56,034 nt of DNA, from contig DATKQS010000019.1 in assembly GCA_035532555.1 (NCBI GenBank), forward strand, positions 1 to 56,034, read 5' to 3'. Each line of letters opens with the position of its first letter. The first letter of the stretch is position 1. Positions 9,552-38,609 of the stretch are shown here, one piece after another. The notes below the pieces were generated by a model that saw nothing but the letters and a program-made list of their open reading frames with translations, had not been told where the DNA came from and did not search any database. A program made the position numbers and the translations under genes. This DNA comes from Thermoplasmata archaeon (lineage in GTDB: Archaea; Thermoplasmatota; Thermoplasmata; Lutacidiplasmatales; UBA184).

Positions 9552-12500
9552 ATGATTAGGCCGCAGGTCTGGAGTGTGGGAGTCGCAGTCGTCATTGCCG
9601 CGCTGATGGTAATCCCCGCCTCCTCCATCCACCCCACCTCCGCCTCCCCTTCTACTCCTGCTCTAACTGCGTCGAGCCCGGTGGTAGCTCAATCCTCCTC
9701 CGGCATTACCCCTTCCGGAGGTAGTCCCGGCCCCGTGACATCCCCGTGCTCGGCCGGCGGGTGCGGCCCGGCCGATGGAAACGTTTCGATGGAGTTGCCA
9801 TGCTCAGCCAGCGGGTGTGGCCCGGTCACGAGGACCGATTTGGCGGAGGTGCAGGGCTCTAGCGCCGGGTCCACCAACGTCTATGACCCCTGCCTCACGC
9901 TTTTCGCCCTCGGCTCATCAACATCCCCCGTCTCCGGCTCCGCGTCAACAACTTTCACGCAGGGTAGTGCTGCGCTCACGCTTAGCGCGAATGCCTCTTT
10001 CTGGATTTCCGTCCAAGCTTGCGCCGACATGAGCGTCCATTTGCATTGGACTCATGCGACTTGGGCGCACCCCTTTGGTGTATTGACAATCAGCGTCAAT
10101 CTGCAAAAGATTTGGTTCACGGAAGAGTATGGCATGCATTTGGGAGCCAGCGCGACCGTCGCCGGTGGGAACTTCAACCTGAACGATTTTGGGGATCCTT
10201 ACATTGCCATAGATCTCTTGAACGACACGATTCCGCTGCTAACCATTTACGGCTTCCCGATCTTGACGCTCGACGTTTCCCTCTCCTTGGCCCTAGAGTA
10301 CAGCGTCACTTTGACCGCCGGATCCGCCGCTTCATGGGGACTGGATTCCCCGGCGGCAGGTTCACCCCCGGGCGCTCAAGACACCCAAACACAGACCTTC
10401 GTTCCCGGCTCGGGGTGGACCTCGACATCCACCGCTACCCACAGCGACCAGTTTACTGTCACTTCCCTTGGTGGATCCTTGGTGGGCCGAGTCGGCCTCT
10501 ATGTGTCCATGGCGGTGGACCTGTTGGACGGCCTCGCGGAGCTGGGAGGCTACGCCTTCCTGTTCGGACAGGTCAGCATATACGCCGGGCTCTCCGACGA
10601 TACCAGTGGGGTGGTAACCGACCAATCTGCCGGCAATTGCGCTCCGGACGGAAGCGGAACCCATTGCCAATGGACGGGTCCTGGCAGTTGCGGGAGCAAC
10701 TATGTCGTCGACGGGCTGACCATTCAGCCGCTGTTGTACGCAGACGGATTCTCAACAACCGGTTACCTCCCATCTACCCAGCCGACCGGCATTCCGTGGC
10801 TGGTCGCGTGCGCGGCCGTGGGCCTTGAGCTGGGGGTCACGTGGTCCGGACTATGGGATCACTTTAGTGGTACGTTCTGGTACCAAGACTCACTGTTTGT
10901 TGCGCTCCCGATAGCTGCCACGGCGGTCGTTTGCAACGTTGATACACCCAGTTGTACCCCCGCCCTCACCGGCGGCAATCCCGCTCACAGTCCCTATTCT
11001 TGGAGCTGGCCCTCCAACCAGTTGGACGTGTATCCTGGCGCGGGGATGGTTGTGATCACCCCGGTCTTAGAGAGGATAGCATCTGCGTACGAGGAGCTAC
11101 CGGCTAAGTGGAGTACGCCGGCCGACCTGAACGCAACGAACGCGAGCGACAAATCGCATCCAGAGTGCGGGGGGAGGGGTAGCTTGTATGCCTCCGGCTA
11201 CGCGGATAGTTACTCGAACACTGCGAACGGCTACCCCTATGGCTCGCCATCGGTGAGCTCGCCATCGCCCGGCACCATAAGCGCGCCGGTGGAGGATTTC
11301 ATCCCGCCGACCAACTTCAGCCTCGATCACCCAGTTACCAGCCCGCTGAGCACGATCTGTCAATTCTATGTCACACTCGGCCTCCCCATCAGCCTCGTTA
11401 CCATCCAGCTCACAGCCACCGAGTTCAACGTCCTCATCGTTGATCCCCCCGGCCCCGGAGTGCCATCTGCCGTCGGCGACCAGAACCAATGTCCGCAGAC
11501 GGTGGGTCGATGCGCTGGCCAGAGGGTGCTGACCCAGGCCGCGGGGAGCGGCGCCCGTACGCCCAGCGCCACCTCCGCTGCCTACCCGCTTGTCTTCGTC
11601 GAAACCGGGCTGCCGTCTAACGAGACCTTCACCGCGACCGTGGATGGTGTTCCGATGTCGGTCACGACGGACGGGTTCGTGGACAACCTCACCTTCCTGG
11701 AGCCTGACGGCGCCTACAACTTCTCGATCGGTTCGATCCCCGGCTATTCGACGGTATGGGAGGGGCAGGGATATGGGAGTGCTACCGTCAACGGATCGGG
11801 CCAGTTGGTCGTGCTCGGGTTCCAGCGTACGCCGTACACCATCACCCTCAATGTGACCGGGTTCCCACAAAGCTCCGTTTTCCAAGCGACGGTAGGTGGT
11901 GTCGGCCATTCGGTCACGATGAATGCGTCATCGTTTGCCCTCCCTTGGGGGCTCGTGGCGGGGGAACGCATTCCAAACGGGACCTACGGCTTCAACATTA
12001 CGCCGATTCCTGGATACACCGCGACTTGGAGGGGTACCGTGATCGTTGACGGTGGCGACGTGACGGTGAACGTCACGTTGACGCCAGTGAACTCGGTGAC
12101 GTTTGTGGAAACAGGGCTTCCTAGCGGTGACAGCTGGACTGCCGCCGTGACGTACCCCGGGTCGCCGTACGGGTCCGTTGTGAATGCGCCCGCAGCGACC
12201 ATTACGATCCAGGTGCCGAATGGGACCCTCCCGTACCTGGTCAGTGGCCCGGCCGGGTATCTAGTCACGGGAATCTCGCCCATCGGGAACCTCACGGTCA
12301 GCGGAAAGAATGTCACGGAGGCAATCGCATTCGTGCAGGGGACGACGTACGCGATGACGTTCGCGGCGACCAATGTTTCGGAGGACTGGGGCTGGTGCGT
12401 AAGCGTCGGCTGGACGATTTGTACGAATGGGAACGCGATCGTCGTGGAGAACCTAACCGAGGCGACCTATCCGTATTCGGTGCTGCCGATCCCACCCCTC

Positions 12501-13730
12501 GCGGGCATCACGGAAAAGATCAGTGTTAACGGGCAACCGGCATCGGCCAGCGGGTGGGCTCGACTGAACGGTGGCGTCGCAGTCGCGGTGACCTTTACCC
12601 TGGTGACCTATGCGCTCACGTTCGCAGAGACCGGCCTCGCGACCGGGACGACTTGGCAGGTGGACGTCGAGGGCATGTTCAACGGGCAGAACGTGACGAC
12701 GGAAGTCGGGAGCTCGGTGGCCGACGCGATCACGGTCCAAGTTCCGAACGGGACGTTCAACTACACGTTCGTGTCGGTGCCCGGTTACATCGGACCCGGG
12801 CCCGGGGCGGCTCTGGTCAGCGGGAGCGCGGTGTCGGTTCCTGTCACATTCACCCTATCGAGGCCGTCGACCTACACTCTCACGTTCACGGAGAAAGGGC
12901 TCGCGATTGAGGCGAGCTGGTCGGTCACCCTGAATGGGGTACCGCTGTCTGGATCGGGGAGTTCGATCCCATTCGGGGGGCTAGTGAACGGGAGTTACAC
13001 GTTCAGCGTGGGTTCGCTCACTGGCTACACGGCGGGGCCGTCGTCGGGCACGATTACGGTGAACGGCGCGGCCGTGAGCCAAGCGATCGCGTTCACGGTG
13101 GCTCCCCCGAGCACATACCTGGTGACTTTCACGGAGGCGGGGCTATCGAGCGCCTCGCTCGCCACGGGCTTGTGGGTCGTTTGCATCTGGATCGAGGGGG
13201 TCCTCGTTTGCTTCTGGGGCGGCGACGATGCCTCGCTGGCGACCACCCTCGCTAACGGCACCTACAACTACACCGTGAATCCGGCCACCGGATACACGGC
13301 GAACCCGGCGAGCGGGAAGATCGTCATCGCCGGGGCCCCCGTGAACATTGGCATCGCCTTCACCCCAACGGCGAAGATGTACGCGGTGACGTTCACGGAG
13401 AGTGGGCTGCCGACCGGGACAAGCTGGTCGGTGACGTTCAACGGGACGACGAAGAGCTCTACGTCAGCCGCCATCGCGTTCAACGAGGCGAACGGGACAT
13501 ACACGTTCACGACCGGTGCGGTACCGAGCTACAGCGCGACGCCCGGATCGGGCCCCCTGACCGTCGTGGGAGGCTCGGTCGGCCAGGCGATCACATTCAC
13601 TGCCGCTAGCGGGGGAGGGGGGAGTTCCTCGGTGACGTGGTGGATCTGGGTAGTCATCGCGAGCGTGATTGTAGTGGTCGTCGCCATCGCCGTAGCCCTC
13701 GTGCTGCGGCGAAGGCCCCCGGCGGCCTGA
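9552..13730 (+). CDS. Giant repeat-containing cell-surface protein
   Basis: The protein has 1392 residues. It has a signal peptide (VWSVGVAVVIAALMVIPASS), a short low-complexity region with a duplicated CSAxGCGP motif at about residues 55-95, an N-terminal beta-rich domain (~110-660), and from about residue 677 eight Ig-like repeats of 75-90 residues beginning with variants of TYTLTFTExGLPxGTSWSV and containing NGTYxFxxxxxPGY. A Gly/Ser linker leads to a C-terminal membrane helix (WWIWVVIASVIVVVVAIAVA) ending in RRRPPAA, so it is anchored with its bulk outside. Numerous N-x-S/T sites suggest glycosylation. Repeats of this type are characteristic of Thermoplasmatota surface proteins. Adhesion or cell-coat function is likely; an enzymatic role of the N-terminal domain is not excluded. 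Confidence 0.88.
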   Translation: MIRPQVWSVGVAVVIAALMVIPASSIHPTSASPSTPALTASSPVVAQSSSGITPSGGSPGPVTSPCSAGGCGPADGNVSMELPCSASGCGPVTRTDLAEVQGSSAGSTNVYDPCLTLFALGSSTSPVSGSASTTFTQGSAALTLSANASFWISVQACADMSVHLHWTHATWAHPFGVLTISVNLQKIWFTEEYGMHLGASATVAGGNFNLNDFGDPYIAIDLLNDTIPLLTIYGFPILTLDVSLSLALEYSVTLTAGSAASWGLDSPAAGSPPGAQDTQTQTFVPGSGWTSTSTATHSDQFTVTSLGGSLVGRVGLYVSMAVDLLDGLAELGGYAFLFGQVSIYAGLSDDTSGVVTDQSAGNCAPDGSGTHCQWTGPGSCGSNYVVDGLTIQPLLYADGFSTTGYLPSTQPTGIPWLVACAAVGLELGVTWSGLWDHFSGTFWYQDSLFVALPIAATAVVCNVDTPSCTPALTGGNPAHSPYSWSWPSNQLDVYPGAGMVVITPVLERIASAYEELPAKWSTPADLNATNASDKSHPECGGRGSLYASGYADSYSNTANGYPYGSPSVSSPSPGTISAPVEDFIPPTNFSLDHPVTSPLSTICQFYVTLGLPISLVTIQLTATEFNVLIVDPPGPGVPSAVGDQNQCPQTVGRCAGQRVLTQAAGSGARTPSATSAAYPLVFVETGLPSNETFTATVDGVPMSVTTDGFVDNLTFLEPDGAYNFSIGSIPGYSTVWEGQGYGSATVNGSGQLVVLGFQRTPYTITLNVTGFPQSSVFQATVGGVGHSVTMNASSFALPWGLVAGERIPNGTYGFNITPIPGYTATWRGTVIVDGGDVTVNVTLTPVNSVTFVETGLPSGDSWTAAVTYPGSPYGSVVNAPAATITIQVPNGTLPYLVSGPAGYLVTGISPIGNLTVSGKNVTEAIAFVQGTTYAMTFAATNVSEDWGWCVSVGWTICTNGNAIVVENLTEATYPYSVLPIPPLAGITEKISVNGQPASASGWARLNGGVAVAVTFTLVTYALTFAETGLATGTTWQVDVEGMFNGQNVTTEVGSSVADAITVQVPNGTFNYTFVSVPGYIGPGPGAALVSGSAVSVPVTFTLSRPSTYTLTFTEKGLAIEASWSVTLNGVPLSGSGSSIPFGGLVNGSYTFSVGSLTGYTAGPSSGTITVNGAAVSQAIAFTVAPPSTYLVTFTEAGLSSASLATGLWVVCIWIEGVLVCFWGGDDASLATTLANGTYNYTVNPATGYTANPASGKIVIAGAPVNIGIAFTPTAKMYAVTFTESGLPTGTSWSVTFNGTTKSSTSAAIAFNEANGTYTFTTGAVPSYSATPGSGPLTVVGGSVGQAITFTAASGGGGSSSVTWWIWVVIASVIVVVVAIAVALVLRRRPPAA
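11581..13612 (+). repeat. Eight tandem Ig-like coding repeats
   Basis: Eight consecutive units of about 230-270 bp within the surface-protein gene encode domains that open with (V/L)TFxExGL and close with a strand such as VSQAIAFT or VPVTFTL. The last units are the most alike in sequence and share the pattern SYTFSVG/TYTFTTG. The seventh carries an insertion with three Cys (LWVVCIWIEGVLVCFWGG), and the fourth has a CVSVGWTIC pair that may form a disulfide. Confidence 0.8.
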
Positions 13731-14726: not shown

Positions 14727-15494
14727 GTGCCGGCTCTCGTGGAGCTCCGGATCCGGGGCGGCCCCGTGCCTCACTGGATGCAGGACCTGGGCACGCGCTG
14801 GGGAGCCGGAGTCCGTCTCCACGTCTGCCGGCACGCCGATGCCTCACCTCGTCGCCTCCTGCAGCTTCTCGAGATCAACGCGACCCCCGCCACCCTCCCG
14901 GAGATCACGGCCTTCCTTCGCCAACGGGCCGGCCCCGAAGAAATCTCGCTCACGCAGCTCGGATCGCAACGACTCCTCGTCCGTCTTGTCGGACCGCTGC
15001 CGGCCCTCTGCCACACCGTCTTCGAGATGGGGGCCATCTGCATGAGCTGTCCCTTCCTGCCTTCGGCCGGCGTCCAGGAAGGGGAGGTACGCGAGGGGGA
15101 GTGGCGGGTGCTCGTTCATCGGGTTCGGGACGCCCATCCCCTCCTCGCCTCGTTCACCACGCCGGGCAGCTCGCCGGCCTCGCTGGTCCGCATCGGTTCC
15201 TTCCGAGGGTCCCTCGATCTGACGCCTCGCCAGGAAGTGGCCGTCGGAACGGCCCTCGTGCTAGGATACTACGACTATCCGCGCCGGGCCCAGCTGAAGG
15301 ATGTCGCAAAGTCTCTCGGCGTCAGCCGCGCGACGGCCATGGAGAACCTGCGTCGTGGCATGCGCAAGCTCGCCTCCCAGCGTCGATCCGAGGTGGGGAT
15401 CGTCCGAAGCCGCCCCACGCCCAGCGACCGTCCCCGGAGCGCGTCGGATCAGCGCGACGGCGAGGAGACGCACGCCGTGCTCAGGGAACGATGA
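14727..15494 (+). CDS. Bacterio-opsin-activator-like (HTH_10) transcriptional regulator
   Basis: The protein has about 255 residues from GTG 14727; the frame is open further upstream but that part is Arg/Ser-rich and unlike the family. The N-terminal ~150 residues form a ligand-sensing-type region containing a CMSC pair (GAICMSCPFLPS), seen in some archaeal HTH_10 regulators. The C-terminal DNA-binding domain is diagnostic: LTPRQEVAVGTALVLGYYD, then DVAKSLGVSRATAMENLRRG. It lies tail-to-tail with had and overlaps it by 14 bases. Being the only regulator next to the benzoyl-CoA operon, it is a candidate to control it; that is inference. The Cys pair could sense redox state or metal. Confidence 0.78.
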   Translation: MPALVELRIRGGPVPHWMQDLGTRWGAGVRLHVCRHADASPRRLLQLLEINATPATLPEITAFLRQRAGPEEISLTQLGSQRLLVRLVGPLPALCHTVFEMGAICMSCPFLPSAGVQEGEVREGEWRVLVHRVRDAHPLLASFTTPGSSPASLVRIGSFRGSLDLTPRQEVAVGTALVLGYYDYPRRAQLKDVAKSLGVSRATAMENLRRGMRKLASQRRSEVGIVRSRPTPSDRPRSASDQRDGEETHAVLRER

Positions 15495-16503
15495 GGGTCC
15501 GCAACCCTTTCCCGGCCCGGAGGTCCTCGGCGGCCTCCCCGATCCGATCGAGCGGGAGGGTAGCGGTGACGACCGCGTCGAGGCTCACCATCCCCTTCCG
15601 CACCATTTCGATGACGCGCGGATAGTCCACGGGCCGGCACCCGAGGGAGCCGACGATCTCGTACTCGAAGAACATCAGACGGTTGAGCGGGATCGGAACG
15701 ACCGAATCGCTGTACCCCACGACACAGAGCCGCCCTCCCCGCCGGAGCGTGGAGAGTGCCAGACTTACGGTCTCGGGCGTACCGACCACCTCGAGCGCCA
15801 CGTCCGCGCCCCCCCCGGACCGCTTCCGCACCTCGCGCCCGAGGTCGGGGTACTCCCGGGGATCCAGCGCTTCGCACGCCCCGAGGCGCAGAGCCGCTTC
15901 GCGCTTCTCCGCGCGAAGGTCCACGGCGATCACGCTCGCACCGACCGCTGCCGCGAACTGGACAGCGTTGATCCCGACGCCGCCGCATCCGACCACCACG
16001 ACCCAATCCCCACTTTGCACTCGCGCTCGTCGGACGACCGCATGGTACGGCGTCGTCAGGGCATCGGCGATCACCGCACTCGACGCGAGGTTGAGGTCGG
16101 AGGGCAACGGTACGAGGTCGCGTGCTGGGACTCGTACGTACTCCGCGAACCCTCCGTCGATGTGGTTACCCGGCATCTGGAGGTACGGACAGATGTTCCC
16201 GCGCCCCGATCTACAATACTCACAGTTCCGGCATGGAAGGACCGAAGGGACCAGCACCCGGTCCCCGATGGACCGTACGGAGCTCCCGGTTCCCAGTTCC
16301 TCGACCACGCCCGAGATCTCGTGTCCCAGAATGAGGGGAGGACTCTTCGCCGTCGGGACGGCGTGGTCGAGGTAATGGAGATCCGTATGGCAGAAGCCGC
16401 ACGCCGCCACCTTCACGAGGGCGTCGTCCGGCCCCGGGACCGGGCGAGGCACTTCGCCGACGACGAGGGGACGTCCCGAGCCATGAAAGACAGCCGCTCG
16501 CAT
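15481..16503 (-). CDS. had: 6-hydroxycyclohex-1-ene-1-carbonyl-CoA dehydrogenase (zinc alcohol dehydrogenase family)
   Basis: The protein has 340 residues of the medium-chain zinc dehydrogenase family. Catalytic zinc ligands are in ACGFCHTD (Cys) and LGHEISG (His-Glu); the structural zinc loop is CRNCEYCRSGRGNIC (four Cys); the NAD-binding Rossmann motif is VGCGGVG, with an acidic residue after the second strand (VIAVDLR) that favours NAD+. Within this family the substrate is set by context: the gene is the last of the operon, 12 bases after dch and on the same strand as the benzoyl-CoA reductase genes, so it most likely oxidises 6-hydroxycyclohex-1-ene-1-carbonyl-CoA to the 6-oxo compound. 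A generic alcohol dehydrogenase role is the alternative. Confidence 0.82.
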   Translation of the reverse strand: MRAAVFHGSGRPLVVGEVPRPVPGPDDALVKVAACGFCHTDLHYLDHAVPTAKSPPLILGHEISGVVEELGTGSSVRSIGDRVLVPSVLPCRNCEYCRSGRGNICPYLQMPGNHIDGGFAEYVRVPARDLVPLPSDLNLASSAVIADALTTPYHAVVRRARVQSGDWVVVVGCGGVGINAVQFAAAVGASVIAVDLRAEKREAALRLGACEALDPREYPDLGREVRKRSGGGADVALEVVGTPETVSLALSTLRRGGRLCVVGYSDSVVPIPLNRLMFFEYEIVGSLGCRPVDYPRVIEMVRKGMVSLDAVVTATLPLDRIGEAAEDLRAGKGLRTLIVP

Positions 16504-16515
16504 GGATCCGCGGTC

Positions 16516-17286
16516 TCAACCGTCCTTCCAAACGGGGGCTCGTTTTTCGAGGAACGCTTGGAGTCCTTCCTCCGCTCCCTCCGTTCTCATGAGCTCGTCG
16601 AGGTAGGCGCGCTCGGCGTACGCCAGACGGGGCCACGGATCCACCTCCGACCTTCGGAGGACCCGTTTGAGCAGGTGCAGAGCTTCGCGACGGTAGCTAC
16701 AGAGCGTCTGGGCGGTCAATGCCACCGAGGCATCGAGCTCCTCCTCGGAAACCACGCGGTTGACGATCCCGGCGGCCGCCGCCCGCGGGGCATCGAACGG
16801 CGTTCCCAAGAACAGGAGCTCGGCGGCGGACCGAGAACCAAGGAGATGAAAGTAGGTGGCGGCTCCGAACGGTGCAAAGACCCCCAACCGGATCTCGGGC
16901 TGGCCGAACGTCGCCCCCTCGGAGGCGATCGCGAGGTCGCAGGCCATCAGCAGCTCCATGCCACCACCGAGGCACCTTCCGTGGACCTGGGCGATCGTCG
17001 GGGAGGGCAGGTTCCACAGGGTCGTGAGGGTCGTGCGGAACGCTTCGAACATGGCGGAGACCCGGGGCTTGAGGTGGTCCTCGACGCTGAGGCCACCGCT
17101 CCAGGATTTGCCTCCGCCGCGCAGCACGACAACATGGGCGGTGGTAACCTCCTCGCGGTGCAGCACGCGGTTGAGCTCCTCCAGGAGTCGGGTGTCGAAC
17201 ACGTTCGCCGGTCCCCGCTCCCAGGTGATCGTCGCACGTCCATCGACGCGCGCGACGGAGACGGTGCCCGGAGGTTTCGCGCTCAC
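16516..17286 (-). CDS. dch: Cyclohexa-1,5-diene-1-carbonyl-CoA hydratase
   Basis: The protein has 256 residues with the crotonase fold. It shows the oxyanion-hole motif CLGGGMELLMACDLAIA and the second motif ATFGQPEIRLGVFAPFGA. The segment WSGGLSVEDH, in place of the usual FCAG(A/G)xD of enoyl-CoA hydratases, together with the FxPxA-like stretch, is typical of the dienoyl-CoA hydratases of anaerobic aromatic degradation (Dch, BzdW). It would add water to the product of benzoyl-CoA reductase to give 6-hydroxycyclohex-1-ene-1-carbonyl-CoA. It lies 12 bases downstream of bzdN and 12 bases upstream of had, in one operon. Confidence 0.85.
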   Translation of the reverse strand: MSAKPPGTVSVARVDGRATITWERGPANVFDTRLLEELNRVLHREEVTTAHVVVLRGGGKSWSGGLSVEDHLKPRVSAMFEAFRTTLTTLWNLPSPTIAQVHGRCLGGGMELLMACDLAIASEGATFGQPEIRLGVFAPFGAATYFHLLGSRSAAELLFLGTPFDAPRAAAAGIVNRVVSEEELDASVALTAQTLCSYRREALHLLKRVLRRSEVDPWPRLAYAERAYLDELMRTEGAEEGLQAFLEKRAPVWKDG

Positions 17287-17298
17287 CGTAGTCCTCGG

Positions 17299-18546
17299 TC
17301 ACTCGAAGAGGATCGACTCGGCGAACGTCTCAAGCTGTAGACGCGCTTGCTCGTAGGTGGTCGACTTCTCTTCGAACTCCATGTGCAGGTAAGGGATGCC
17401 CCGCCCTTCGAGGGCCCTTCGGTAGAGCACCACGTCCTCGAGCGCGGGCTCGCAGAATTTGGCGGTGAGGAAGAGCACGCCCTGCGCCTTCGCAGCATCG
17501 ACCCGTGCGAGGATGGCGGCCGCCTTGGTGGTCGGGGTGCTCCGGACCCCGATGTCGACGGGCGTCCGGACGTACGACGTAGCGAGGCTCTCGAGAGGAT
17601 CGGTTCCCGGCTCGATGCGCGGGCACCAGCGGTGCAGCATCTGGAGCTCTTCCCCGACCACGTAGCAACCGACGTCCTCGATGAGCTGCAGGAGCTCGAG
17701 GGTCGGCTGTTCGCAGAACGGACCGAGGACGATCACCCGGATCGCATCCTTGTTCTTTCGCTCCCTTCCTTCGAGCTCGGCGATCGCCCGGCGGAGCAGC
17801 GGGATGTGGACCTCCCGGGGGAGAAGGCCTCCCAGCCGGAGCAGAAGGTAGTATTCGACCAGGGTGACCTTCCACGGCGCGTCTCGCTTCAGCACGACGA
17901 GTCGATCCACGAGCGCGCGTTGCTCGTTGAATACCTCAAGGGACGCGCGCAGGTCCTCTTGGGAGAAGGGGCGGCCGGCGACGCGTTCGAGCTTCTCGAT
18001 GAGACTGCGGTACTCCGCTACCAGGAACGGGATCGTGGCCGGGGAGGTGAAGTTCTGTGGCAGGTGAAGCATGTGCGAGGGTCGCTGCGGGAGAACTCGG
18101 GTGAAGATCCCGTCCAGGTTGCGACTGACGTCGCAAATGTACGGAAAGACGAACGCATCGAACGGGTCCAGGAGACCGGTGAGGGCCATCTCGAGCGTCG
18201 ATTTTGAGATCGAGCAGAGGAAGGAGCCGAGCGCTGCGTCCGCGCGGCTGATCTCGAGGTTTTCTCCGCCGCCCTGGATCGCGACCGGCATCATCGCGAA
18301 GGAGTGGACGAGCTCCTGCGGCGTGTAGACGGGAAAGCACCCGACGGCTTTGCCGCCCGCTGTCCGCCAGGCCCGGACGGTAGGGAACGTCGGATCGGCG
18401 AGGACCTCCTGGGCGAGGTGGACGATCTTTTCGACGGACTCCGCCTCCGTGAACTCCCGGAAATCCGGCGAGATATCGATCCCGGGGGGAGCCTCGCCGT
18501 CCGGGAGGTCCCCGGCCCAGGACCCGATCTTGAGCAGTTCGGGCAT
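17299..18546 (-). CDS. bzdN: Benzoyl-CoA reductase, BzdN/BcrC-type subunit
   Basis: The protein has 415 residues and belongs to the HgdB/BcrC family. The open frame runs further upstream, but ATG 18546 follows the preceding stop by two bases and gives the normal N-terminus. Family features are GGKAVGCFPVYTPQELVHSF, MPVAIQGGGENLEISRADA, FPYICDVSRN, GPFCEQPTLEL and TAKFCEPALEDV; the Cys in the last three are the expected iron-sulfur ligands. With BzdO it forms the catalytic half that reduces benzoyl-CoA to cyclohexa-1,5-diene-1-carbonyl-CoA, driven by ATP through BzdPQ. By itself the family also includes 2-hydroxyacyl-CoA dehydratases; the dch, had and oah genes around it decide in favour of benzoyl-CoA. 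Confidence 0.86.
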   Translation of the reverse strand: MPELLKIGSWAGDLPDGEAPPGIDISPDFREFTEAESVEKIVHLAQEVLADPTFPTVRAWRTAGGKAVGCFPVYTPQELVHSFAMMPVAIQGGGENLEISRADAALGSFLCSISKSTLEMALTGLLDPFDAFVFPYICDVSRNLDGIFTRVLPQRPSHMLHLPQNFTSPATIPFLVAEYRSLIEKLERVAGRPFSQEDLRASLEVFNEQRALVDRLVVLKRDAPWKVTLVEYYLLLRLGGLLPREVHIPLLRRAIAELEGRERKNKDAIRVIVLGPFCEQPTLELLQLIEDVGCYVVGEELQMLHRWCPRIEPGTDPLESLATSYVRTPVDIGVRSTPTTKAAAILARVDAAKAQGVLFLTAKFCEPALEDVVLYRRALEGRGIPYLHMEFEEKSTTYEQARLQLETFAESILFE

Positions 18547-18548
18547 GC

Positions 18549-19358
18549 CTATCCTCGCGCTCCCTGCGGTGCCGTGGCGAGCTTCCGGAGCCGGGAGTGC
18601 CCGAGGACCGCGCTGCCGAGAGCGGCGGCATAGTACGCATCGGGCGCCACGTTCAGGTCCATTCCGACCGTGTCGTGGAGGGCCTTCACCATCCCGACGT
18701 TGCGAACGAGGCCTCCGACGAGCGTGACCTCCGGCTGGATCCCCACGTACCGCATGAGGGAGTGCGCGCGCTGGGCGAGGGAGAGGAAGACGCCCATCAG
18801 GATGTCGGAGAGCGGCACGCCTTCCGCGACGTTGTTGATGATCTCCGTCTCGGCGAGGACCGCGCAGACGCTCGAGATGAGCTTCGGGCGTTCCGATGCG
18901 AGCGCCTTCGGGCCCATCTCCTCGAGAGGGACCTGGAGATACTTCGAGCAGCGCTCGACGAAGCGGCCCGCTCCCGCGGCGCACTTCTCGTTCATCTTGA
19001 ACTTGAGGACCTTTCCCGTCTCGGAGATGGACATGGTCCGGGAGGCCTGCGTTCCAACATCGACCACCATCCGGGTCTTGGGAAAGAGGAAGATGGCGCC
19101 GCGCGCCGAGGAGGTGAAGTCGCTGACCTGCAGGTTCCGCTCGGGGATCGAGTACCGGCCGAAGCCGGTCGTGCAGAGGTAGTCGATGTCGTCCGGAGCG
19201 ATGTTCGCCGTCTCCCCCAACGCGTCCAGCACTTGGTGCGCGGTCTGCACCGGGATCCCCCGCGACGGAGCCGAGGCGGTCGCGAGGATGCGTCGACCGT
19301 CTTCGAGCAGCACACCCTTGATGACTCCCGCGCCGAGGTCGAGGCCGCCGGTGATCAC
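18549..19358 (-). CDS. bzdQ: Benzoyl-CoA reductase activator ATPase, BzdQ/BcrD-type subunit
   Basis: The protein has 269 residues and is an ASKHA-fold ATPase of the BadF/BadG/BcrA/BcrD family. It starts at a GTG overlapping the stop of bzdP (GTGA). The phosphate-1 loop is LDLGAGVIKGVLL and the bridging-cluster Cys are in NEKCAAGAGRF (Cys126) and SSVCAVLAETE (Cys165). The second nucleotide motif, VDVGTQASRTM, deviates from the DIGGQDxK of BzdP, as expected for the second subunit type. Together with BzdP it holds one [4Fe-4S] cluster and couples ATP hydrolysis to electron transfer into BzdNO. Its ~28 kDa size matches the Azoarcus BzdQ rather than a long BcrA. Confidence 0.86.
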   Translation of the reverse strand: MITGGLDLGAGVIKGVLLEDGRRILATASAPSRGIPVQTAHQVLDALGETANIAPDDIDYLCTTGFGRYSIPERNLQVSDFTSSARGAIFLFPKTRMVVDVGTQASRTMSISETGKVLKFKMNEKCAAGAGRFVERCSKYLQVPLEEMGPKALASERPKLISSVCAVLAETEIINNVAEGVPLSDILMGVFLSLAQRAHSLMRYVGIQPEVTLVGGLVRNVGMVKALHDTVGMDLNVAPDAYYAAALGSAVLGHSRLRKLATAPQGARG

Positions 19359-20149
19359 GCCGCACCTCCCGAGAGCCGTTCGCGGCCGTGGAGCGCCGCC
19401 CCCAAAGCTCCGAGGTACTGCGAGAGCGGGCTCACGTTGACGGGGACCCCGAGCCGGCGGTGGAGAGCGTGGACCATGCCCTCGTTCTGGGAGACGCCGC
19501 CCGTGAACGTGATCTCGGGTTCTACGCCGACCCGCTGCATCAGGGAAAGTGTCCGGTTCGCGATGCTCGCATGCAGCCCCGCGAGGATGTCCTTTGGGTC
19601 CTTGCCGCGCGATACGTACGACGTGACCTCCGATTCCGCGAAGACCGTGCAGGTGCTCGTGACCTTCACCGCGCGCCGGGCCTGGAGGGAGAGCGGCCCG
19701 ATCTCGCCGACATCGTACCCCAGCGCGTTGGCACACACGTCTAGGAATCGCCCGGTGCCGGCTGCGCACTTGTCGTTCATCGCGAAGTCGACGACCTCGC
19801 CCTTCTCGTCGATCCGGATCGCCTTCGTGTCCTGGCCGCCGATATCGACCACGAGGCGTGTCCCGGGGAACAGGAAGTTGGCCCCTCGCGCGTGGCAGGA
19901 GATCTCGGTGACGACGAGTTGGCCGAAGTAGACCTTGTACCGGCCGTATCCGGTGCCGGTGATGAACGACACTTCGGACCGGGAGAGGTGGGCGTCGGCG
20001 AGGGCGGCTTCGAGGGCGCGTTCCGCGTCCTTCACGATATCGACGCCGACGACGCTCAGCGACTTGCCGAGGATCCGAGAATCCTCTCCGAGGACCACGC
20101 ACTTCGCCGTCGTCGAGCCGATGTCGACCCCCGCGACGACCGCGCTCAT
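19355..20149 (-). CDS. bzdP: Benzoyl-CoA reductase activator ATPase, BzdP/BcrA-type subunit
   Basis: The protein has 264 residues. ATG 20149 overlaps the bzdO stop (ATGA), although the frame is open further upstream. It shows VDIGSTTAKCVVL (phosphate-1), TGTGYGRY, VDIGGQDTKAIR (phosphate-2 region), NDKCAAGTGRF (Cys128) and TSTCTVFAESEV (Cys167), the canonical set for 2-hydroxyglutaryl-CoA dehydratase activators and class I benzoyl-CoA reductase ATPase subunits. A homodimeric activator would need only one such gene; the presence of two consecutive, differing genes supports a heterodimeric BzdPQ arrangement and hence benzoyl-CoA reductase. Both subunits are ~28 kDa, like Azoarcus BzdP and BzdQ. 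Confidence 0.87.
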   Translation of the reverse strand: MSAVVAGVDIGSTTAKCVVLGEDSRILGKSLSVVGVDIVKDAERALEAALADAHLSRSEVSFITGTGYGRYKVYFGQLVVTEISCHARGANFLFPGTRLVVDIGGQDTKAIRIDEKGEVVDFAMNDKCAAGTGRFLDVCANALGYDVGEIGPLSLQARRAVKVTSTCTVFAESEVTSYVSRGKDPKDILAGLHASIANRTLSLMQRVGVEPEITFTGGVSQNEGMVHALHRRLGVPVNVSPLSQYLGALGAALHGRERLSGGAA

Positions 20150-21450
20150 CCGGGGGCGGCCCCCGCCGCGGCCGCCACGGCCCGGCGCTGCTCGAGGGAT
20201 TCGAAGAAGGCGTCCATGCGGTTCTTGATCTGGGCGGGCGCGAAGTATCGGGGGTCCTGGTGGTCGGACTCGATGTAGAGGGTGGGCACCCCCTGGTCGT
20301 GGATCAACCAGTCCCTCAGGTCGCCCTGGCCGGCCGTGAACGAACGGCACGACTTGATACCGTGGATGATGACGGCGTCCGCCTGGTACTCCTTCACGTA
20401 GTCGGCGATGATCTTCCGGCGCAACGGCCAGGATTGATTCACGTAGGCGCCGAGGCTGTACTCCGCGATGCTCTCGAACGGCCGGGACGGGTCGTGCCGG
20501 AAGCCGCGGTCGAAGAGCCCCCCGACCTTCGGGTAGGTCGCGACGACCGATACCGCGCCCCACTTCCGGAAGAAGTCCCAGAACGTCCGATAGTTGGTGT
20601 ACGGTGGAACTCCCTCGACGAGGACGCGGACCTTCTCCTCCGGCAGAGGATAGTTCCTGTCCCGCACCCGGGCTCGAACCTCCTCGTTCACCACGTCGTA
20701 GAAGTCCGCGGCCCCGGGCGTTCCCCGGAGCACATTGATCGGGAACATGTAGAAGATCGACTCGAAATAGGCCTCAATCGGAGACGGGCGGAGCCGGCCG
20801 GCGCGGAGGAATTCTACCCACCCATCCTCGGCACGGCGGGATTCGGCCAGAACCCGCTTGAGCTCGTCCATGTCGAACGCACGCCCGGTGCGTTTCTCCA
20901 GGAGGTGGACGAGCTCCCAAAGCTGGCTCACCAGGTAGGCGATGTCCTCCTTGCGGGGCTTCTCCTCCCGCATGTACGGCACGTCGAACATGAACAGCGG
21001 GGCGCCGTACGACTCTGCGAGCGCCTCCCACCACTTCACGTACACATAGCAGCCCGAGAAGCTGCAGACCAGCAGGTCGGGGCGTGGGATCTGGCCGAAC
21101 GAGGTCTTCCCACCGAGGTCTTGGAGCCCGAGGTCGTTCTTCACGTAGCCGCAGACATCGAGCCCGTACCCGAGCGACTCAGCGTGCAGGATGTTCTCGA
21201 GCGACTGGTGCTTGATCGCGCAGTTGAGCGCGACGATCTCCGGAAAGACGACGTCGTAGCCGAACGAACGGAGGATCTCTGTGAGGTTCCCGCCGACCAG
21301 CATGTACGCCACGGGTCGACGTGGTTGGTCGACCGACGCGAGCTCGCCGTAGTACTCCTCCACGAGCTTGCGCTGGAGGCCGCGGGCATCGCGAAGGAAG
21401 GAGCGCGAGACTCCCCCGGGAACCGCCGGTGCCGAGACGACTTCCGACAC
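20146..21450 (-). CDS. bzdO: Benzoyl-CoA reductase, BzdO/BcrB-type subunit
   Basis: The protein has 434 residues from GTG 21450, four bases after the oah stop. It carries the BcrB/BzdO landmarks: LVCSFSGCYVYVKWWEAL, FDVPYMREEKP, FFRKWGAVSVVATYPKVGGL, HGIKSCRSFTAGQGDLRDWL and SDHQDPRYFAPAQIKNRMDAF. Cys residues in CSFSGC, DVCGYVKN and IKSCRSF are candidate iron-sulfur ligands. It pairs with BzdN as the catalytic module. The length is usual for the family. Overlap with bzdP at ATGA and the tight spacing upstream show that the genes oah-bzdO-bzdP-bzdQ-bzdN-dch-had are one transcription unit. Confidence 0.87.
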   Translation of the reverse strand: MSEVVSAPAVPGGVSRSFLRDARGLQRKLVEEYYGELASVDQPRRPVAYMLVGGNLTEILRSFGYDVVFPEIVALNCAIKHQSLENILHAESLGYGLDVCGYVKNDLGLQDLGGKTSFGQIPRPDLLVCSFSGCYVYVKWWEALAESYGAPLFMFDVPYMREEKPRKEDIAYLVSQLWELVHLLEKRTGRAFDMDELKRVLAESRRAEDGWVEFLRAGRLRPSPIEAYFESIFYMFPINVLRGTPGAADFYDVVNEEVRARVRDRNYPLPEEKVRVLVEGVPPYTNYRTFWDFFRKWGAVSVVATYPKVGGLFDRGFRHDPSRPFESIAEYSLGAYVNQSWPLRRKIIADYVKEYQADAVIIHGIKSCRSFTAGQGDLRDWLIHDQGVPTLYIESDHQDPRYFAPAQIKNRMDAFFESLEQRRAVAAAAGAAPG

Positions 21451-21454
21451 CGGA

Positions 21455-22564
21455 TCACTCCCCGGGCGCGGTCGGCGAGAGGATGGCGGATCCGCACCGT
21501 CCGCAGAATTCGAAGTCCTCGGGGAGTCCTTTGGCCCCGCAGGCCGGGCAGCGTCGCACGGGGCGACCGAAGAGGAACTCGGCCCCCTTTCCTTCTGCGA
21601 GACGACGACGAAGTCCCGCCACGTCGGGAGGCCGTTTCTCGACGAACGCATTCATTCCCTCGTGGGGTTCCCGATCGGTGAAGTGGAGGGAGAGCCATTC
21701 GCGGCCGTGACCGACCGTGCTGTGCCAGGACAGCTCCTTCCAGAAGTTCACCTGTTGTTTGGTGTACCGAAGGCATTCCGGGAACATTCCCAGCAGGCGA
21801 TGGCAGAGTCGATCGACCGACGCGTCCAGCGGCGCGAGGTCGATCTGGTAGCCTTCCAACCCCTTGCGCGCGAGGTCGATCTGCTCATTCGTGGGTTCTT
21901 CGACGAGTTCCGTTCCTCGTCGTACCGATGGGGCGACCTCGCTAACGAGGCCCCAGTCCAGGGCTTTGCGGGCCGGGATCCGTTCATTGAGAAACAGCAT
22001 GGTGCGCGCCCGGCGGTCCCCCACCACGAGAGGGAGCCACTGAGTAGCGCCACCGCAGGCCACCGAGCCGACGCCCACGCCCACCTGCCCGAGATACACG
22101 TGGGACGCTGCGACCGACAGGTCGCAGGCGAGATGGAGCTCGTTTCCGCCGCCCACGGTGATCCCGTTGAGCCTTGCGATCGTCGGCTTCCCGCACCGCA
22201 GCAGGGCCTCGACCGCCCCCTCGAAGAGGCCCATGTACTTCCAGTAGTCCCGGGGGCGTTGGGTGTACCGTTCGGCATACTCGCGGACGTCGCCGCCGGT
22301 GCAGAAGGCCGCGGATCCCACGCCCGTGAGAACGATCACGCCGATCGCATCATCGACCGATGCGTCTTCGACCGCGCGGCAAAGCTCGCGAAGCGTGCCG
22401 GTCGCGTAGGCGTTGTAGGCGTGGGGGCGATTGAGCGTGATGCGTGCGATCCCATCGCGCTTCTCGTAGAGCAGGTCCCGGAAGTCGATTTCCTCCGGTG
22501 CCATCGGCGCGAGGACGTCGGGTTCGCTCACGGATTCGGACTGCTTCGGGCGTGCCTTCATCAT
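21455..22564 (-). CDS. oah: 6-oxocyclohex-1-ene-1-carbonyl-CoA hydrolase with C-terminal zinc ribbon
   Basis: The protein has 369 residues and belongs to the crotonase-fold ring-opening hydrolases (Oah/BzdY/BamA). Landmarks are LNRPHAYNAYATGTLRELC, FCTGGDVREYAERY, GGGNELHLACDLSVA, YLGQVGVGVGSVACGGATQW and the C-terminal WKELSWHSTVGHGREWLSLH and EPHEGMNAFVEKRPPD, which distinguish this group from ordinary hydratases. It would add two waters to open the ring and give 3-hydroxypimeloyl-CoA. Unusually, residues 339-357 form a zinc ribbon (CPACG...FCGRCG) after the family domain, similar to those on archaeal acyl-CoA-handling proteins. It is the first gene of the operon. Confidence 0.87.
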   Translation of the reverse strand: MMKARPKQSESVSEPDVLAPMAPEEIDFRDLLYEKRDGIARITLNRPHAYNAYATGTLRELCRAVEDASVDDAIGVIVLTGVGSAAFCTGGDVREYAERYTQRPRDYWKYMGLFEGAVEALLRCGKPTIARLNGITVGGGNELHLACDLSVAASHVYLGQVGVGVGSVACGGATQWLPLVVGDRRARTMLFLNERIPARKALDWGLVSEVAPSVRRGTELVEEPTNEQIDLARKGLEGYQIDLAPLDASVDRLCHRLLGMFPECLRYTKQQVNFWKELSWHSTVGHGREWLSLHFTDREPHEGMNAFVEKRPPDVAGLRRRLAEGKGAEFLFGRPVRRCPACGAKGLPEDFEFCGRCGSAILSPTAPGE

Positions 22565-22684: not shown

Positions 22685-23242
22685 TCAGCGGAGATCCCTG
22701 GGCGCGGGCCGCCCTTTCCCGGGGCCGACCCCGAGCTGAACTTCGATCTCCTGGCAGATCTGGGCTACTTCGGACATCTCGGCCGGAGAGAGAACGGCCC
22801 GGGCCATCGGGAAGAGGACCTGATCCTCCTTCTCGATGTGAAGCGCCAAGAGGTGGTCGACCGAGTCGGTGGCGGCGGAGACCGCGGTCCATGCTTCCAC
22901 GGCCTCGAGGTCGGTCTCGAGCTTGGGAACGTTGCGCGCGATGGTCTTCTGATGGCGGCGTAGGAGTTCGTGCTCCTCGAGCATCACCCCCACCGGGCCG
23001 CCCTCGCTCCCGATGTGGCGGACGAGGATCGGGAAGAGTCCCTCCTCTTCCTTTCGCCCGTGGAATCCGTCCACATCCTTCGCGAGGAAATCGGCGAATG
23101 TGGACATCGAGGTCGCCACGCCCCTGCGTCCCCGCCCTTCCTGAAAGAGTCGTTGAAGATCGGTCCGGACCTCCCCGAGGCGCCGGAGGAAGCTCTGGTG
23201 TTCCTCCATCAAGACCGCGATGGGGTCGTAGTCGGTCGCCAT
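22685..23242 (-). CDS. Hemerythrin-like HHE-domain protein
   Basis: The protein has 185 residues from ATG 23242; an ATG nine bases upstream and a longer frame exist but add atypical sequence. It has the hemerythrin-type helices with metal ligands: LMEEHQSFLRR, DGFHGRKEEEGLFP, VMLEEHELLRRHQK and LLALHIEKEDQVLFP. Such domains bind a di-iron centre that senses or binds O2 or NO. It is on the same strand as the benzoyl-CoA operon, 120 bases ahead of oah. Because class I benzoyl-CoA reductase is destroyed by oxygen, an oxygen-sensing or scavenging role is attractive but inferred only from position. Confidence 0.83.
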   Translation of the reverse strand: MATDYDPIAVLMEEHQSFLRRLGEVRTDLQRLFQEGRGRRGVATSMSTFADFLAKDVDGFHGRKEEEGLFPILVRHIGSEGGPVGVMLEEHELLRRHQKTIARNVPKLETDLEAVEAWTAVSAATDSVDHLLALHIEKEDQVLFPMARAVLSPAEMSEVAQICQEIEVQLGVGPGKGRPAPRDLR

Positions 23243-23420
23243 CAGTCGCATCCCACAAGGTCGGATGCGGTACCCTCCGCCGGCTCCCACCGGCGGCGGG
23301 GGCCGCCCATCAAGCGAGCGGGTCCAGCGGACATGCGGTGCCCGAAGGGCCGCGAACGTGCTTATCGCTTCGGAACTCACCCGCCGTTAACTCCAAGAAG
23401 CAGGGCGGGGTGCCGGGCTC

Positions 23421-24212
23421 ATGCCCGTCCGTTTCAAGACCGACGGGCACGTCGCTTGGATCACTCTGGATCGTCCGGAGGCGCTGAACGCCATCGATCC
23501 CGAGTCCCATGCCGCCCTGGTGGCCGCCTGGAAGCGCTTCCGCGATGAGGACGGTCTCCGCGTGGCCGTGCTCACCGGGGCCGGGACGAAAGCCTTCTGC
23601 GCCGGGGTCGACATCAAACGGATAGGAGACTTCTATGGGAACGTCCCGGCCGGGCAGCGAGTAGAGGTCTGGAACCGCGAGCCGGGGATCGGCGGAATCA
23701 CCCGGAATCTCGAGGTTGGAAAGCCCGTCATCGCCGCGGTCAACGGACTCTGTCTCGGGGGTGGACTCGAGCTGGCCCTGGCCTGCGACATCCGCCTCGC
23801 GAGCGCGAACGCCAGCTTCGGCCTGCCCGAGGTCCGGTGGGCGATCATCCCCGGACAAGGCGGAACGCAGCGGCTCCCACGAGCCGTGCCCCCTGCCGTA
23901 GCGCTCGAGATGATCCTCACCGCCCACCCGATCGATGCCGCGCGAGCCGCGGCCATAGGTCTGGTCAACCAGGTGTACCCGCTCTCCCGCCTTCGGGAGG
24001 AAGCCCAGACGATGGCGGAGGTGATCGCCGCGCACCCTCCCCGCGCCGTTCGAGCCGCCCTCGCCGCGGTGCGCGGGGGCCTCGCCCTCCCGCTCTCCGA
24101 AGGCCTACGGCTCGAGCAGGAGCTTGCCGACCCCTTGCGCGACAGCCCGGACAACCGCGAGGCCCGGGAGGCGTTCCGAGAGAAACGCCCGCCCCGGTGG
24201 ACCGTCGGCTGA
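23421..24212 (+). CDS. Enoyl-CoA hydratase (crotonase family)
   Basis: The protein has 263 residues. Both catalytic glutamates of classical enoyl-CoA hydratases are present: CLGGGLELALACDIRLA and ASFGLPEVRWAIIPGQGGTQ. The substrate-pocket motif AFCAGVDIKR is also typical. It hydrates 2-enoyl-CoA to 3-hydroxyacyl-CoA in beta-oxidation. It is divergent from the hemerythrin gene and the benzoyl-CoA operon and may serve the C7 dicarboxyl-CoA intermediates after ring opening, for example the glutaconyl/crotonyl steps; this is inference. A 1,2-epoxide isomerase or other crotonase activity is possible. Confidence 0.85.
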   Translation: MPVRFKTDGHVAWITLDRPEALNAIDPESHAALVAAWKRFRDEDGLRVAVLTGAGTKAFCAGVDIKRIGDFYGNVPAGQRVEVWNREPGIGGITRNLEVGKPVIAAVNGLCLGGGLELALACDIRLASANASFGLPEVRWAIIPGQGGTQRLPRAVPPAVALEMILTAHPIDAARAAAIGLVNQVYPLSRLREEAQTMAEVIAAHPPRAVRAALAAVRGGLALPLSEGLRLEQELADPLRDSPDNREAREAFREKRPPRWTVG

Positions 24213-27239: not shown

Positions 27240-28391
27240 ATGCCGAATCCTGCGTTCTCCCCGGCCCGTGTGCAGGTTCGGATAGCAACGCCCAAAACGG
27301 AGATCGAACTGGGGCCCTCCGTGAACACCTCGGCCCCCATCGACCCCCGGATCGATACCGCGCTGTTGGAAGGGCTCGAGTTTGCCTGTCGCCCGGACTG
27401 CGGCCTCTGCTGCTACGCGACCCCCGCGGTGGATCGAGCCGAACGGGCCGAGCTTCTGCATATCGCGCCGGAGAGCACGTTCGTTTCCGACGCACGCGGC
27501 GAGGCCTACATCGCCGCCCGGCCCCAGGGCGGGGCGTGCCAGTTCCTCTCCCAGAACCGCTGCAGGGTGCATGCGGCGAGACCGTTCCCATGCGCCGTTT
27601 TCCCCGTCATCGTCCATGCCGGAACTCGCTTCCAGGCATCGGCGGTGGTGTCCTGCCCCGGCGTCTCGATCCCGGGTCGCGCAGATCCGGGGAGCTCCCG
27701 AGCACTCCCGCCGCCCCGTGGTCTCGACACGGAGCTCGGCCGCGCCGAAGCTCGATGCCGTTCCGACGATGGAAGGCGAGCCCTGGCGGCCGCGCGACGG
27801 GACGGGCAGCGGGTCGAGCGGATCCTCGAACGGGAGGGTCTCTGGGTACCGCCGCTCCAGGTCCGCGAGTCGTTGCGCGGACGGATTCCCCTGCCGGATT
27901 CGTCGGACTTTCCCGTCGACGATCCTCCCGAACTTGAGGAGGGGGAGGAGGTCTTGCCGCTCTTCTTCGATGACCGACTAGGCCCCGTCGCGATCGCCGG
28001 GCACGCCGGCGGCTGGCAGCTGGTCGAGCTCCAGGAGGAGGGAGGTATTCGTGCGTGGTTGGGAGTTTGGCCCCCTCCCACGCGGATGCCGCGACTCGAA
28101 GTTGCCGCCGAGCGTGCCCTGCGCGACTATCTCGCTTACTGGCTGGAGCGCGATGCCCTGTTCGGGTTCGTCCATATGGCGATGATCGAGGAGCCCTCCG
28201 TGGAGGATGTCCTCGTCCGCGTCACCCGAGAACTGCGCTGGATCGGAGCGACGGTCGTCGCGAGGGCCCGGGTCCGAGCGAGCGGTCGGGGAGGGACCTC
28301 ACCATCGCTCGCCGAGTCCGACATCGAACGAGGCATCCGGGCCTCGGACGCCGATTTGCTCGATCGCGCCGGCTGGACCGTTCAGCTCTGA
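27240..28391 (+). CDS. YkgJ-family cysteine-cluster protein
   Basis: The protein has 383 residues from ATG 27240. The N-terminal part carries the YkgJ/Fe-S cluster signature CRPDCGLCC (residues 50-58) and then CQFLSQNRCRVHAARPFPC, the CxxxCxxCC...C...C pattern thought to bind a metal or iron-sulfur cluster. The C-terminal ~230 residues have no recognised domain but are well structured (helical and strand segments, including LRDYLAYWLERDALFGFVHM). Archaeal members of this size often have such an extension. The gene's last ten bases overlap the convergent deacetylase gene. The molecular function of the family is not established. Confidence 0.82.
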   Translation: MPNPAFSPARVQVRIATPKTEIELGPSVNTSAPIDPRIDTALLEGLEFACRPDCGLCCYATPAVDRAERAELLHIAPESTFVSDARGEAYIAARPQGGACQFLSQNRCRVHAARPFPCAVFPVIVHAGTRFQASAVVSCPGVSIPGRADPGSSRALPPPRGLDTELGRAEARCRSDDGRRALAAARRDGQRVERILEREGLWVPPLQVRESLRGRIPLPDSSDFPVDDPPELEEGEEVLPLFFDDRLGPVAIAGHAGGWQLVELQEEGGIRAWLGVWPPPTRMPRLEVAAERALRDYLAYWLERDALFGFVHMAMIEEPSVEDVLVRVTRELRWIGATVVARARVRASGRGGTSPSLAESDIERGIRASDADLLDRAGWTVQL

Positions 28392-29539
28392 GTACGGGGC
28401 CGCGGGAACCGCCGCCCGAGGGCCGATTCGAGATCGCCGACCAGCTGCTCCTCGGCCGCCGCATTCCACGGCGACGGGAGCCGCTGCGATGGGATCGACC
28501 AATCGAGCGGGGCCGCCTCTCCCGTCTCGCGCTGGAACTCCGCCCGCCAGGCGATCGGCAACGGGTCATCCCGGCCCGGCCCCGAAGCCGAGCCCGCCAG
28601 GCGGTGGCCGGCTCGAGCGAGCCCTCTCGCGACGTTCTCCGGGGTGTATCCTCCTCCGCCCGTGACCAGGAGGCGGGACCGACACAGCTCGCGAGAGAGG
28701 TCCAGAAGCTCGTCCAGCACCGTCGCGTACCCCTCGGGAGTGTACTGGAGTCCCGCGAGCCGATCCCCCGCGTGGCCGTCCATCCCGTGCTGCAGGACGA
28801 TGAGATCCGGGCGAAACTCTCGCACCAGCGGCGGGACCACGCGCCGGAAGAGCGGGATGAGCGCCTCGTCCCCCGCCCCCGGCGGCAGTGGAAGGTTGAC
28901 CTTGAAGCCCTCCCCGTCGCCTTGCCCGGTCTCGCTCGGGAACCCGGTGCCGGGAAAGAGGGTCCTCCCGTCCTGGTGGAAATCGATGTCGAGGACGCGT
29001 CCGGAGTCAAAGAACCCGTACATCACACCGTCTCCGTGGTGGGCGTCGATGTCGAGATACGCGACCCGGTCGCCCCCGTCCAGTCCGCGGCGGACGGCGA
29101 GCGCTACGTCGTTGAAGATGCAGAAGCCGCTCGCCCGGTCCGGGTGGGCATGGTGCAGGCCACCGGACGGCTGGAACACCGGCGCGTCGCGCTCGCGGGT
29201 CAGAGCGACCGCGCGCATGGTGGCGGAGGCCACGCGGCCGGAGGCCTCCCAGCATCCGGGAAAGGCCGGCGTATCTCCCGTATCGAGGAAGACCGGGCGC
29301 GCCCCCGAGCTGGACCGCTCGACGAGTCCGAGGTACTCCTGCGTGTGAAACGTGGACAGCTCGGCCGTCGACGCCGGATCGATCTCTCGGATCCATTCCA
29401 CCCCGGATTCGGGTGCCAGGGTCGCTTCGAGCAGGCGGGCGGCGAGCGCCCGGCTCGACATCTGAAACGGGTGGCCCGCACCGAAGTCGTACTTCCGGAA
29501 CCGCTCGTCCCAGATCACGGTCAGACGGCGCGCGGTCAT
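28382..29539 (-). CDS. Histone deacetylase / AcuC-family deacylase
   Basis: The protein has 385 residues from ATG 29539. Motifs of the HDAC/acetoin-utilisation/acetylpolyamine amidohydrolase superfamily are clear: FQPSGGLHHAHPDRASGFC, YLDIDAHHGDGV (zinc Asp-x-His), DIDFHQDGRTLFPGTG, VLQHGMDGHAGDRLAGLQ and TGGGGYTPENVARGLARA. It resembles AcuC-type enzymes in length and in the HQDGRTLFPGTG segment. Likely substrates are acetyl-lysine proteins, possibly acetyl-CoA synthetase as for AcuC, or acetylpolyamines. It follows the membrane-protein gene at 29565 by 25 bases and is probably cotranscribed with it. Confidence 0.9.
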   Translation of the reverse strand: MTARRLTVIWDERFRKYDFGAGHPFQMSSRALAARLLEATLAPESGVEWIREIDPASTAELSTFHTQEYLGLVERSSSGARPVFLDTGDTPAFPGCWEASGRVASATMRAVALTRERDAPVFQPSGGLHHAHPDRASGFCIFNDVALAVRRGLDGGDRVAYLDIDAHHGDGVMYGFFDSGRVLDIDFHQDGRTLFPGTGFPSETGQGDGEGFKVNLPLPPGAGDEALIPLFRRVVPPLVREFRPDLIVLQHGMDGHAGDRLAGLQYTPEGYATVLDELLDLSRELCRSRLLVTGGGGYTPENVARGLARAGHRLAGSASGPGRDDPLPIAWRAEFQRETGEAAPLDWSIPSQRLPSPWNAAAEEQLVGDLESALGRRFPRPRTQS

Positions 29540-29564
29540 CGTAGGAACCCCGAACGAACCCCGC

Positions 29565-38605: not shown

Positions 38606-38609
38606 AGTT

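Follow-up and report, generated by a model that had tools for sequence, protein, structure and literature searches.

A putative zinc-ribbon ring hydrolase in a predicted class I benzoyl-CoA reductase operon of a Thermoplasmatota archaeon

Which kind of ring reductase, and which kind of ring hydrolase, would a probably oxygen-respiring archaeon use to degrade aromatic compounds anaerobically? The question is raised by a 56,034-nucleotide stretch of DNA (here, the window) from a Thermoplasmata archaeon, positions 1 to 56,034 of contig DATKQS010000019.1 in assembly GCA_035532555.1. A preliminary description of the window recognized seven tightly packed minus-strand genes and assigned them to the Azoarcus-type (Bzd) route from benzoyl-CoA to 3-hydroxypimeloyl-CoA. 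Our analysis indicates that the operon very probably encodes a class I benzoyl-CoA ring-reduction and ring-opening set, and family matches, conserved gene order, and linkage support that assignment of the gene set, while the reductase subtype and a claim of priority are corrected. The seven genes are as follows.

15481 to 16503, minus strand: had; its best family and PDB matches are Had
16516 to 17286, minus strand: putative dch, from its hydratase family match and cluster linkage
17299 to 18546, minus strand: predicted benzoyl-CoA reductase core subunit C (BcrC/MbdN-like), 415 residues, from TIGR02263, MbdN, and the tree; cysteines 111, 138, and 365
18549 to 19358, minus strand: predicted ATPase subunit D (MbdP/BcrD-like), 269 residues, from TIGR00241, TIGR02261, and MbdQ/MbdP
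19355 to 20149, minus strand: predicted ATPase subunit A (MbdQ, or the C-terminal part of BcrA), 264 residues, from PF01869, MbdQ, and motifs
20146 to 21450, minus strand: predicted benzoyl-CoA reductase core subunit B (BcrB/MbdO-like), 434 residues, from TIGR02260, MbdO, and the tree; cysteines 100, 134, and 368
21455 to 22564, minus strand: oah, a predicted ring hydrolase (Oah-like, zinc-ribbon subfamily), 369 residues, ending in the CPACGAKGLPEDFEFCGRCG ribbon

The close packing is borne out by re-derived coordinates: from had to oah, the genes lie 12, 12, and 2 bases apart, overlap by 4 bases twice (D/A and A/B), and are then separated by 4 bases. Profile searches gave long family matches for all seven open reading frames (ORFs). 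Among 33 close named relatives (L053 to L083, L087, and L116), the complete order oah-B-A-D-C-dch-had is kept in 23; another 8 keep it over the stretch that fits on the contig, and 2 are without a detectable dch. In unrelated lineages too (Heimdallarchaeota, Acidobacteria, Planctomycetes, Chloroflexi, and Ignavibacteria), reductase genes are accompanied by homologues of oah, dch, and had. Chance is excluded as an explanation of the arrangement.

The reductase was placed using NCBIfam profiles with curated equivalog cut-offs, matches to PDB sequences, and trees of the core subunits. Subunit B scores 336 bits on BcrB (TIGR02260; cut-off, 487), 158 on HadB, and 105 on BzdO, while subunit C scores 271 bits on BcrC (TIGR02263; cut-off, 421), 184 on HadC, and 91 on BzdN; the two HGD-D core subunits match PF06050 at 199 and 231 bits. 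Against PDB sequences, B matches MbdO at 219 bits versus 106 for BzdO, C matches MbdN at 260 versus 90 for BzdN, and 3-methylbenzoyl-CoA reductase is the best solved-structure match for all four subunits. Each core subunit has three conserved cluster cysteines, as in MbdO/MbdN, and those of B are invariant, MbdO included. In the B and C trees, HadB/HadC and BzdO/BzdN fall outside the reductase-cluster proteins on long branches whose exact place is unsure; the window's core subunits group with the reductase-cluster proteins. Because the BcrB model gives MbdO itself no more than 221 bits but an Ignavibacteriales relative of the window's B 465, we place B in a broad Bcr branch, rather than with Mbd or Bzd, a label that rests on the curated models, the tree reference set being small and without authentic Thauera or Rhodopseudomonas sequences. 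Relatives of named Bcr/Bzd genes from plasmid searches, matching at only 23 to 27%, were rejected as references.

Among the ATPases, subunit A matches PF01869 at 235 bits and MbdQ at 309 bits and carries the motifs DIGGQD, KCAAGTG, and CTVFAE; subunit D scores 190 bits on TIGR00241, 165 on TIGR02261, 197 on MbdQ, and 193 on MbdP, and it reads DVGTQ where A has DIGGQD, with both cluster cysteines kept. The KCAAG(T/A)G and second cysteine motifs that had been described for both ATPases were seen again in the translations. When ATPases of named loci are labelled A or D by similarity to those of the window, DIGGQD occurs in 75 of 77 A subunits and in none of 74 D subunits, and the second cluster cysteine motif occurs in 72 D subunits. 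Two unequal ATPases mark benzoyl-CoA reductases, whereas the activators of 2-hydroxyacyl-CoA dehydratases are homodimers.

These results bear on two other identities for the enzyme. An (R)-2-hydroxyacyl-CoA dehydratase, encoded together with its activator in an operon for fermentation, would belong to the same superfamily, have similar cysteines, and account for the HadB and HadC scores; yet those scores are lower than the scores for reductases, the ATPases are unlike each other, HadB and HadC lie outside in the trees, and Dch, Had, and Oah homologues are linked to the reductase genes in unrelated lineages, which together leave this identity barely tenable. A Bzd reductase of the Azoarcus evansii type (PDB 8s02) shares class I chemistry and two short ATPases of similar length with the window's enzyme, and the preliminary description had used the names bzdN, bzdO, bzdP, and bzdQ. 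However, Bzd core scores are about one-third of the Bcr/Mbd scores, Bcr models and Mbd structures match the core subunits two to three times better than BzdNO does, and BzdO and BzdN branch outside, so that the Bzd type and its gene names are, in our judgment, very improbable. The two short ATPases still count against a homodimer-activated dehydratase but lose their value as a Bzd sign, as MbdPQ and most relatives here share them. We conclude that scores, trees, and conserved partners support a class I benzoyl-CoA reductase, as originally proposed, rather than a 2-hydroxyacyl-CoA dehydratase.

Within class I, the window's enzyme resembles but does not duplicate the known types. Like Bcr, it has two ATPases, linked Dch-Had-Oah, and a pair of core subunits that carry three cluster cysteines each, but B and C score under the curated cut-offs and ATPase A covers only residues 211 to 429 of the 432-residue BcrA model. 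It shares with MbdONPQ (3-methylbenzoyl-CoA reductase; PDB 9g87 and 9gai) four subunits and two short ATPases, but MbdO branches in the B tree with other Thermoplasmatota (families f23, f34, and f42), apart from the window clade.

The ring hydrolase is of a distinct form. It scores 209.5 bits on the Oah model TIGR03200 (cut-off, 464), 166 on BadI, and 162 on MenB, while canonical-motif Oah proteins in relatives score 568, 470, and 442 bits on TIGR03200. Alignment shows that it has the Oah middle insertion and C-terminal region, at 33 to 37% identity to canonical Oah, and that it reads QVGxxVGSVACGGATQWLP where canonical Oah has QAGPKHGSAPDGGSTDFLP, and GSVACGGATQWLP where canonical Oah has GSAPDGGSTDFLP. 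Its C-terminal CxxC...CxxC ribbon, with weak DZR/DUF7577 matches, is an addition to the crotonase fold that it has in common with canonical Oah. An AlphaFold model (mean predicted local distance difference test score, 86) has a confident crotonase core and less certain ribbon blocks (68 to 80), and Foldseek with this model returned only general crotonases and MenB, a discrimination no better than that of sequence.

An Oah homologue could be read in 59 named reductase loci: 49 carry the variant form, 10 carry the canonical form, and no cluster carries both. The ribbon is present in 47 of the 49 variant hydrolases; of the remaining pair, one is truncated at a contig end. Variant hydrolases were found in Thermoplasmatota, Heimdallarchaeota, Acidobacteria, Planctomycetes, Chloroflexi, and Neomarinimicrobiota. 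A strict genome-wide exclusion of the two forms was rejected because one Ignavibacteria genome (G399), whose reductase cluster has a canonical Oah, also holds a ribbon-free, 285-residue relative of the variant away from that cluster (L172:15803-16660). Judged by sequence and gene neighbourhood, the variant is the putative Oah of these reductase clusters, where it takes the Oah place as a distinct zinc-ribbon subfamily.

The remaining genes are consistent with the same pathway. Had scores 277 bits on TIGR03201 (cut-off, 339), 80 bits above the next family (197), and matches PDB 7qul, a Had (6-hydroxycyclohexenecarbonyl-CoA dehydrogenase), at 211 bits, with the next alcohol dehydrogenase at 190. 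Dch gains 118 to 207 bits against hydratases of other reductase clusters versus 54 bits against a neighbouring enoyl-CoA hydratase, and this similarity, together with linkage, favours its assignment as a putative Dch.

Several observations weigh against the proposed function of the operon. Every operon gene scores under its NCBIfam equivalog cut-off, and Dch, at 131 bits on TIGR03189 (cut-off, 292) and 130 on generic enoyl-CoA hydratases, is by that score no better than a generic hydratase. Also, a dedicated benzoate-CoA ligase was not found among the three AMP-forming ligases of the host genome, which was probed family by family with searches: two fall short of the 375 cut-off of the benzoate-CoA ligase model, at 242 and 214, and the third looks by eye like an acetyl-CoA synthetase. 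The genome does encode two fused 2-oxoacid:ferredoxin oxidoreductases, an ADP-forming acyl-CoA synthetase about 3 kb from a 2-oxoacid:ferredoxin oxidoreductase, seven acyl-CoA dehydrogenases, and three 3-hydroxyacyl-CoA dehydrogenase genes, and a UbiD search returned one protein, which was uninformative.

The supply of substrate and the end of the pathway might differ from the textbook route. The same enzymes may act on another aryl-CoA, such as methyl-, hydroxy-, or aminobenzoyl-CoA, or be fed from aromatic amino acids via arylacetyl-CoA rather than from free benzoate. This refinement of the benzoyl-CoA assignment, which we consider somewhat unlikely, draws on the lack of a ligase above the cut-off, the nearby pairing of ADP-forming synthetase and oxidoreductase, and the identity of the closest solved relative as a 3-methylbenzoyl-CoA reductase, although the window's B is nearer to the BcrB model than MbdO is. 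It is also conceivable, if distinctly improbable, that the hydrolase is a BadI-like or other ring hydrolase and that the pathway ends differently: the BadI and MenB scores are not far under that for Oah, the motif departs from the canonical one, and the ribbon-free relative coexists with a canonical Oah in Ignavibacteria. Nevertheless, the hydrolase has its middle insertion and C-terminal region in common with Oah, substitutes for canonical Oah in Had-containing clusters, and is encoded in an operon with Had, not a BadH-type enzyme.

With a class I reductase and a zinc-ribbon Oah as the preferred assignments, the pathway can be outlined. A and D would form an ATPase module with a shared [4Fe-4S] cluster. 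Ferredoxin, reduced by one or other of the two 2-oxoacid:ferredoxin oxidoreductases, is the likeliest electron donor, and ATP hydrolysis would drive the electrons to the B/C core. There, benzoyl-CoA or a closely similar aryl-CoA would be reduced to the dienoyl-CoA; Dch would hydrate this, and Had would oxidise the product. The zinc-ribbon Oah would open the ring hydrolytically to 3-hydroxypimeloyl-CoA, leading to beta-oxidation.

The host is a high-GC Thermoplasmatota archaeon whose genome is 96% complete. A contig of 799,357 bases from Thermoplasmata archaeon YP1.bin63, a member of the window's own genus, carries an operon whose B is 98% identical; this makes a binning error unlikely and, with the occurrence of the hydrolase in 28 of 81 family genomes, scattered through the genus, upholds the archaeal origin suspected at the outset. 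The host encodes an aa3-type oxidase subunit I (590 bits), and a Prismane search found no Prismane/carbon monoxide dehydrogenase (CODH) protein in its genome; a facultative respirer is thus likelier than an acetogen. Acetogenic life has been inferred for seep metagenome-assembled genomes (MAGs) (PMC6472368). The pairing of a class I reductase with an aa3-type oxidase in one host agrees with the known use of this reductase class by facultative, not strict, anaerobes. Despite the lack of CODH, the window encodes a formate-tetrahydrofolate ligase (36974 to 38632; PF01268, 627 bits), which probably serves one-carbon metabolism rather than acetogenesis. A second, divergent haem-copper-oxidase-like protein (L137) is a 915-residue open frame with a long C-terminal extension that reaches only 135 bits on CtaD.

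The reductases of Thermoplasmatota do not form one clade. In the B tree (71 rows), the window falls in a Thermoplasmata clade (support, 100/99) whose sister is Heimdallarchaeota plus one further archaeon (100/99 for both together), and the C tree agrees on that grouping (98 by the Shimodaira-Hasegawa-like approximate likelihood ratio test). A single clade for the Bcr-branch Thermoplasmatota reductases, a group named after the tree was seen, was rejected by the approximately unbiased test (P = 5.7e-10; 420 log units). The reductase of "Candidatus Yaplasmales" bin292 (L088; PMC9239135) is of the same phylum and enzyme class and has dch and had adjacent, but it is 54% identical in B, has the order C-B-A-D-dch-had, and is not sister of the window clade. 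An Mbd-like type occurs in further Thermoplasmatota families. A BcrB-like protein was found in 46 of 390 phylum genomes, of which only the 315- to 359-bit group belongs to the window's branch. Of 23 family genomes seen in both searches, 14 have this reductase type together with the hydrolase and 9 have neither, a co-occurrence with a probability of 1.2e-6 were genomes independent, which they are not. Another reductase type occurs in two genomes (G040 and G290), and two reductase clusters each occur in G340 and G101; because G340 also has two zinc-ribbon hydrolases, one archaeon appears to hold two parallel aromatic cassettes.

Three genes flank the operon.

14805 to 15494, plus strand: regulator of the HTH_10 (bacterio-opsin-activator) type, convergent with the operon, start uncertain (PF04967, 64 bits)
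22685 to 23380, minus strand: hemerythrin (HHE) protein directly upstream of oah, start uncertain (PF01814, 58 bits)
23421 to 24212, plus strand: divergent enoyl-CoA hydratase, a conserved neighbour (PF00378, 201 bits)

Hemerythrin adjoins the operon in 10 of the 33 close relatives, some of which are without that flank, and we guess that it might protect, for example, the oxygen-sensitive reductase from oxygen or nitric oxide. The divergent enoyl-CoA hydratase adjoins the operon in about 20 of the 33. HTH_10 homologues lie near either end of the operon in about 20 as well, which makes the regulator a candidate for control of the operon, but their identities range from 34 to 97%, so that orthology of the distant ones is unsure. 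Elsewhere, the window encodes a transposase-like ORF (3413 to 4609); a secreted-looking, Ser/Thr-rich protein of 1392 residues with repeated FTExGLxxGTxW segments and a C-terminal hydrophobic anchor (9552 to 13730); a histone-deacetylase-fold protein (28382 to 29647; PF00850, 255 bits); and, by eye, an IS200/IS605-like pair (38610 to 40251) in which a short TnpA-like ORF on the minus strand is next to a TnpB-like ORF on the plus strand.

The preliminary description held that this operon would extend the pathway to a further archaeal phylum, but the pathway has already been reported for Thermoplasmatota: Thermoplasmata MAGs with class I reductase genes alongside dch, had, and oah were described in 2019 (PMC6472368), and bcrABCD in "Candidatus Yaplasmales" was presented in 2022 as the phylum's first (PMC9239135). 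Asgard versions were reported in 2021 (PMC8163825). In open-access text searched with few terms, where absence proves little, we found no description of the zinc-ribbon hydrolase subfamily or of the several-fold presence of unrelated reductases in Thermoplasmatota. The open-access literature likewise yielded nothing on 3-methylbenzoyl-CoA reductase under that exact name or on acid-mine Thermoplasmata with benzoyl-CoA.

Because the zinc-ribbon subfamily escapes the curated Oah model, surveys of the pathway that depend on this model would score such operons as incomplete. We tentatively propose, at slightly short of an even chance, that in archaea and several bacterial phyla the zinc-ribbon hydrolase has taken over from canonical Oah in class I benzoyl-CoA reductase operons and that oxygen-respiring Thermoplasmatota owe a facultative anaerobic aromatic pathway to a mobile cassette built around it. 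More broadly, these observations suggest that anaerobic aromatic degradation arose or arrived more than once in Thermoplasmatota and that it moves as a cassette.
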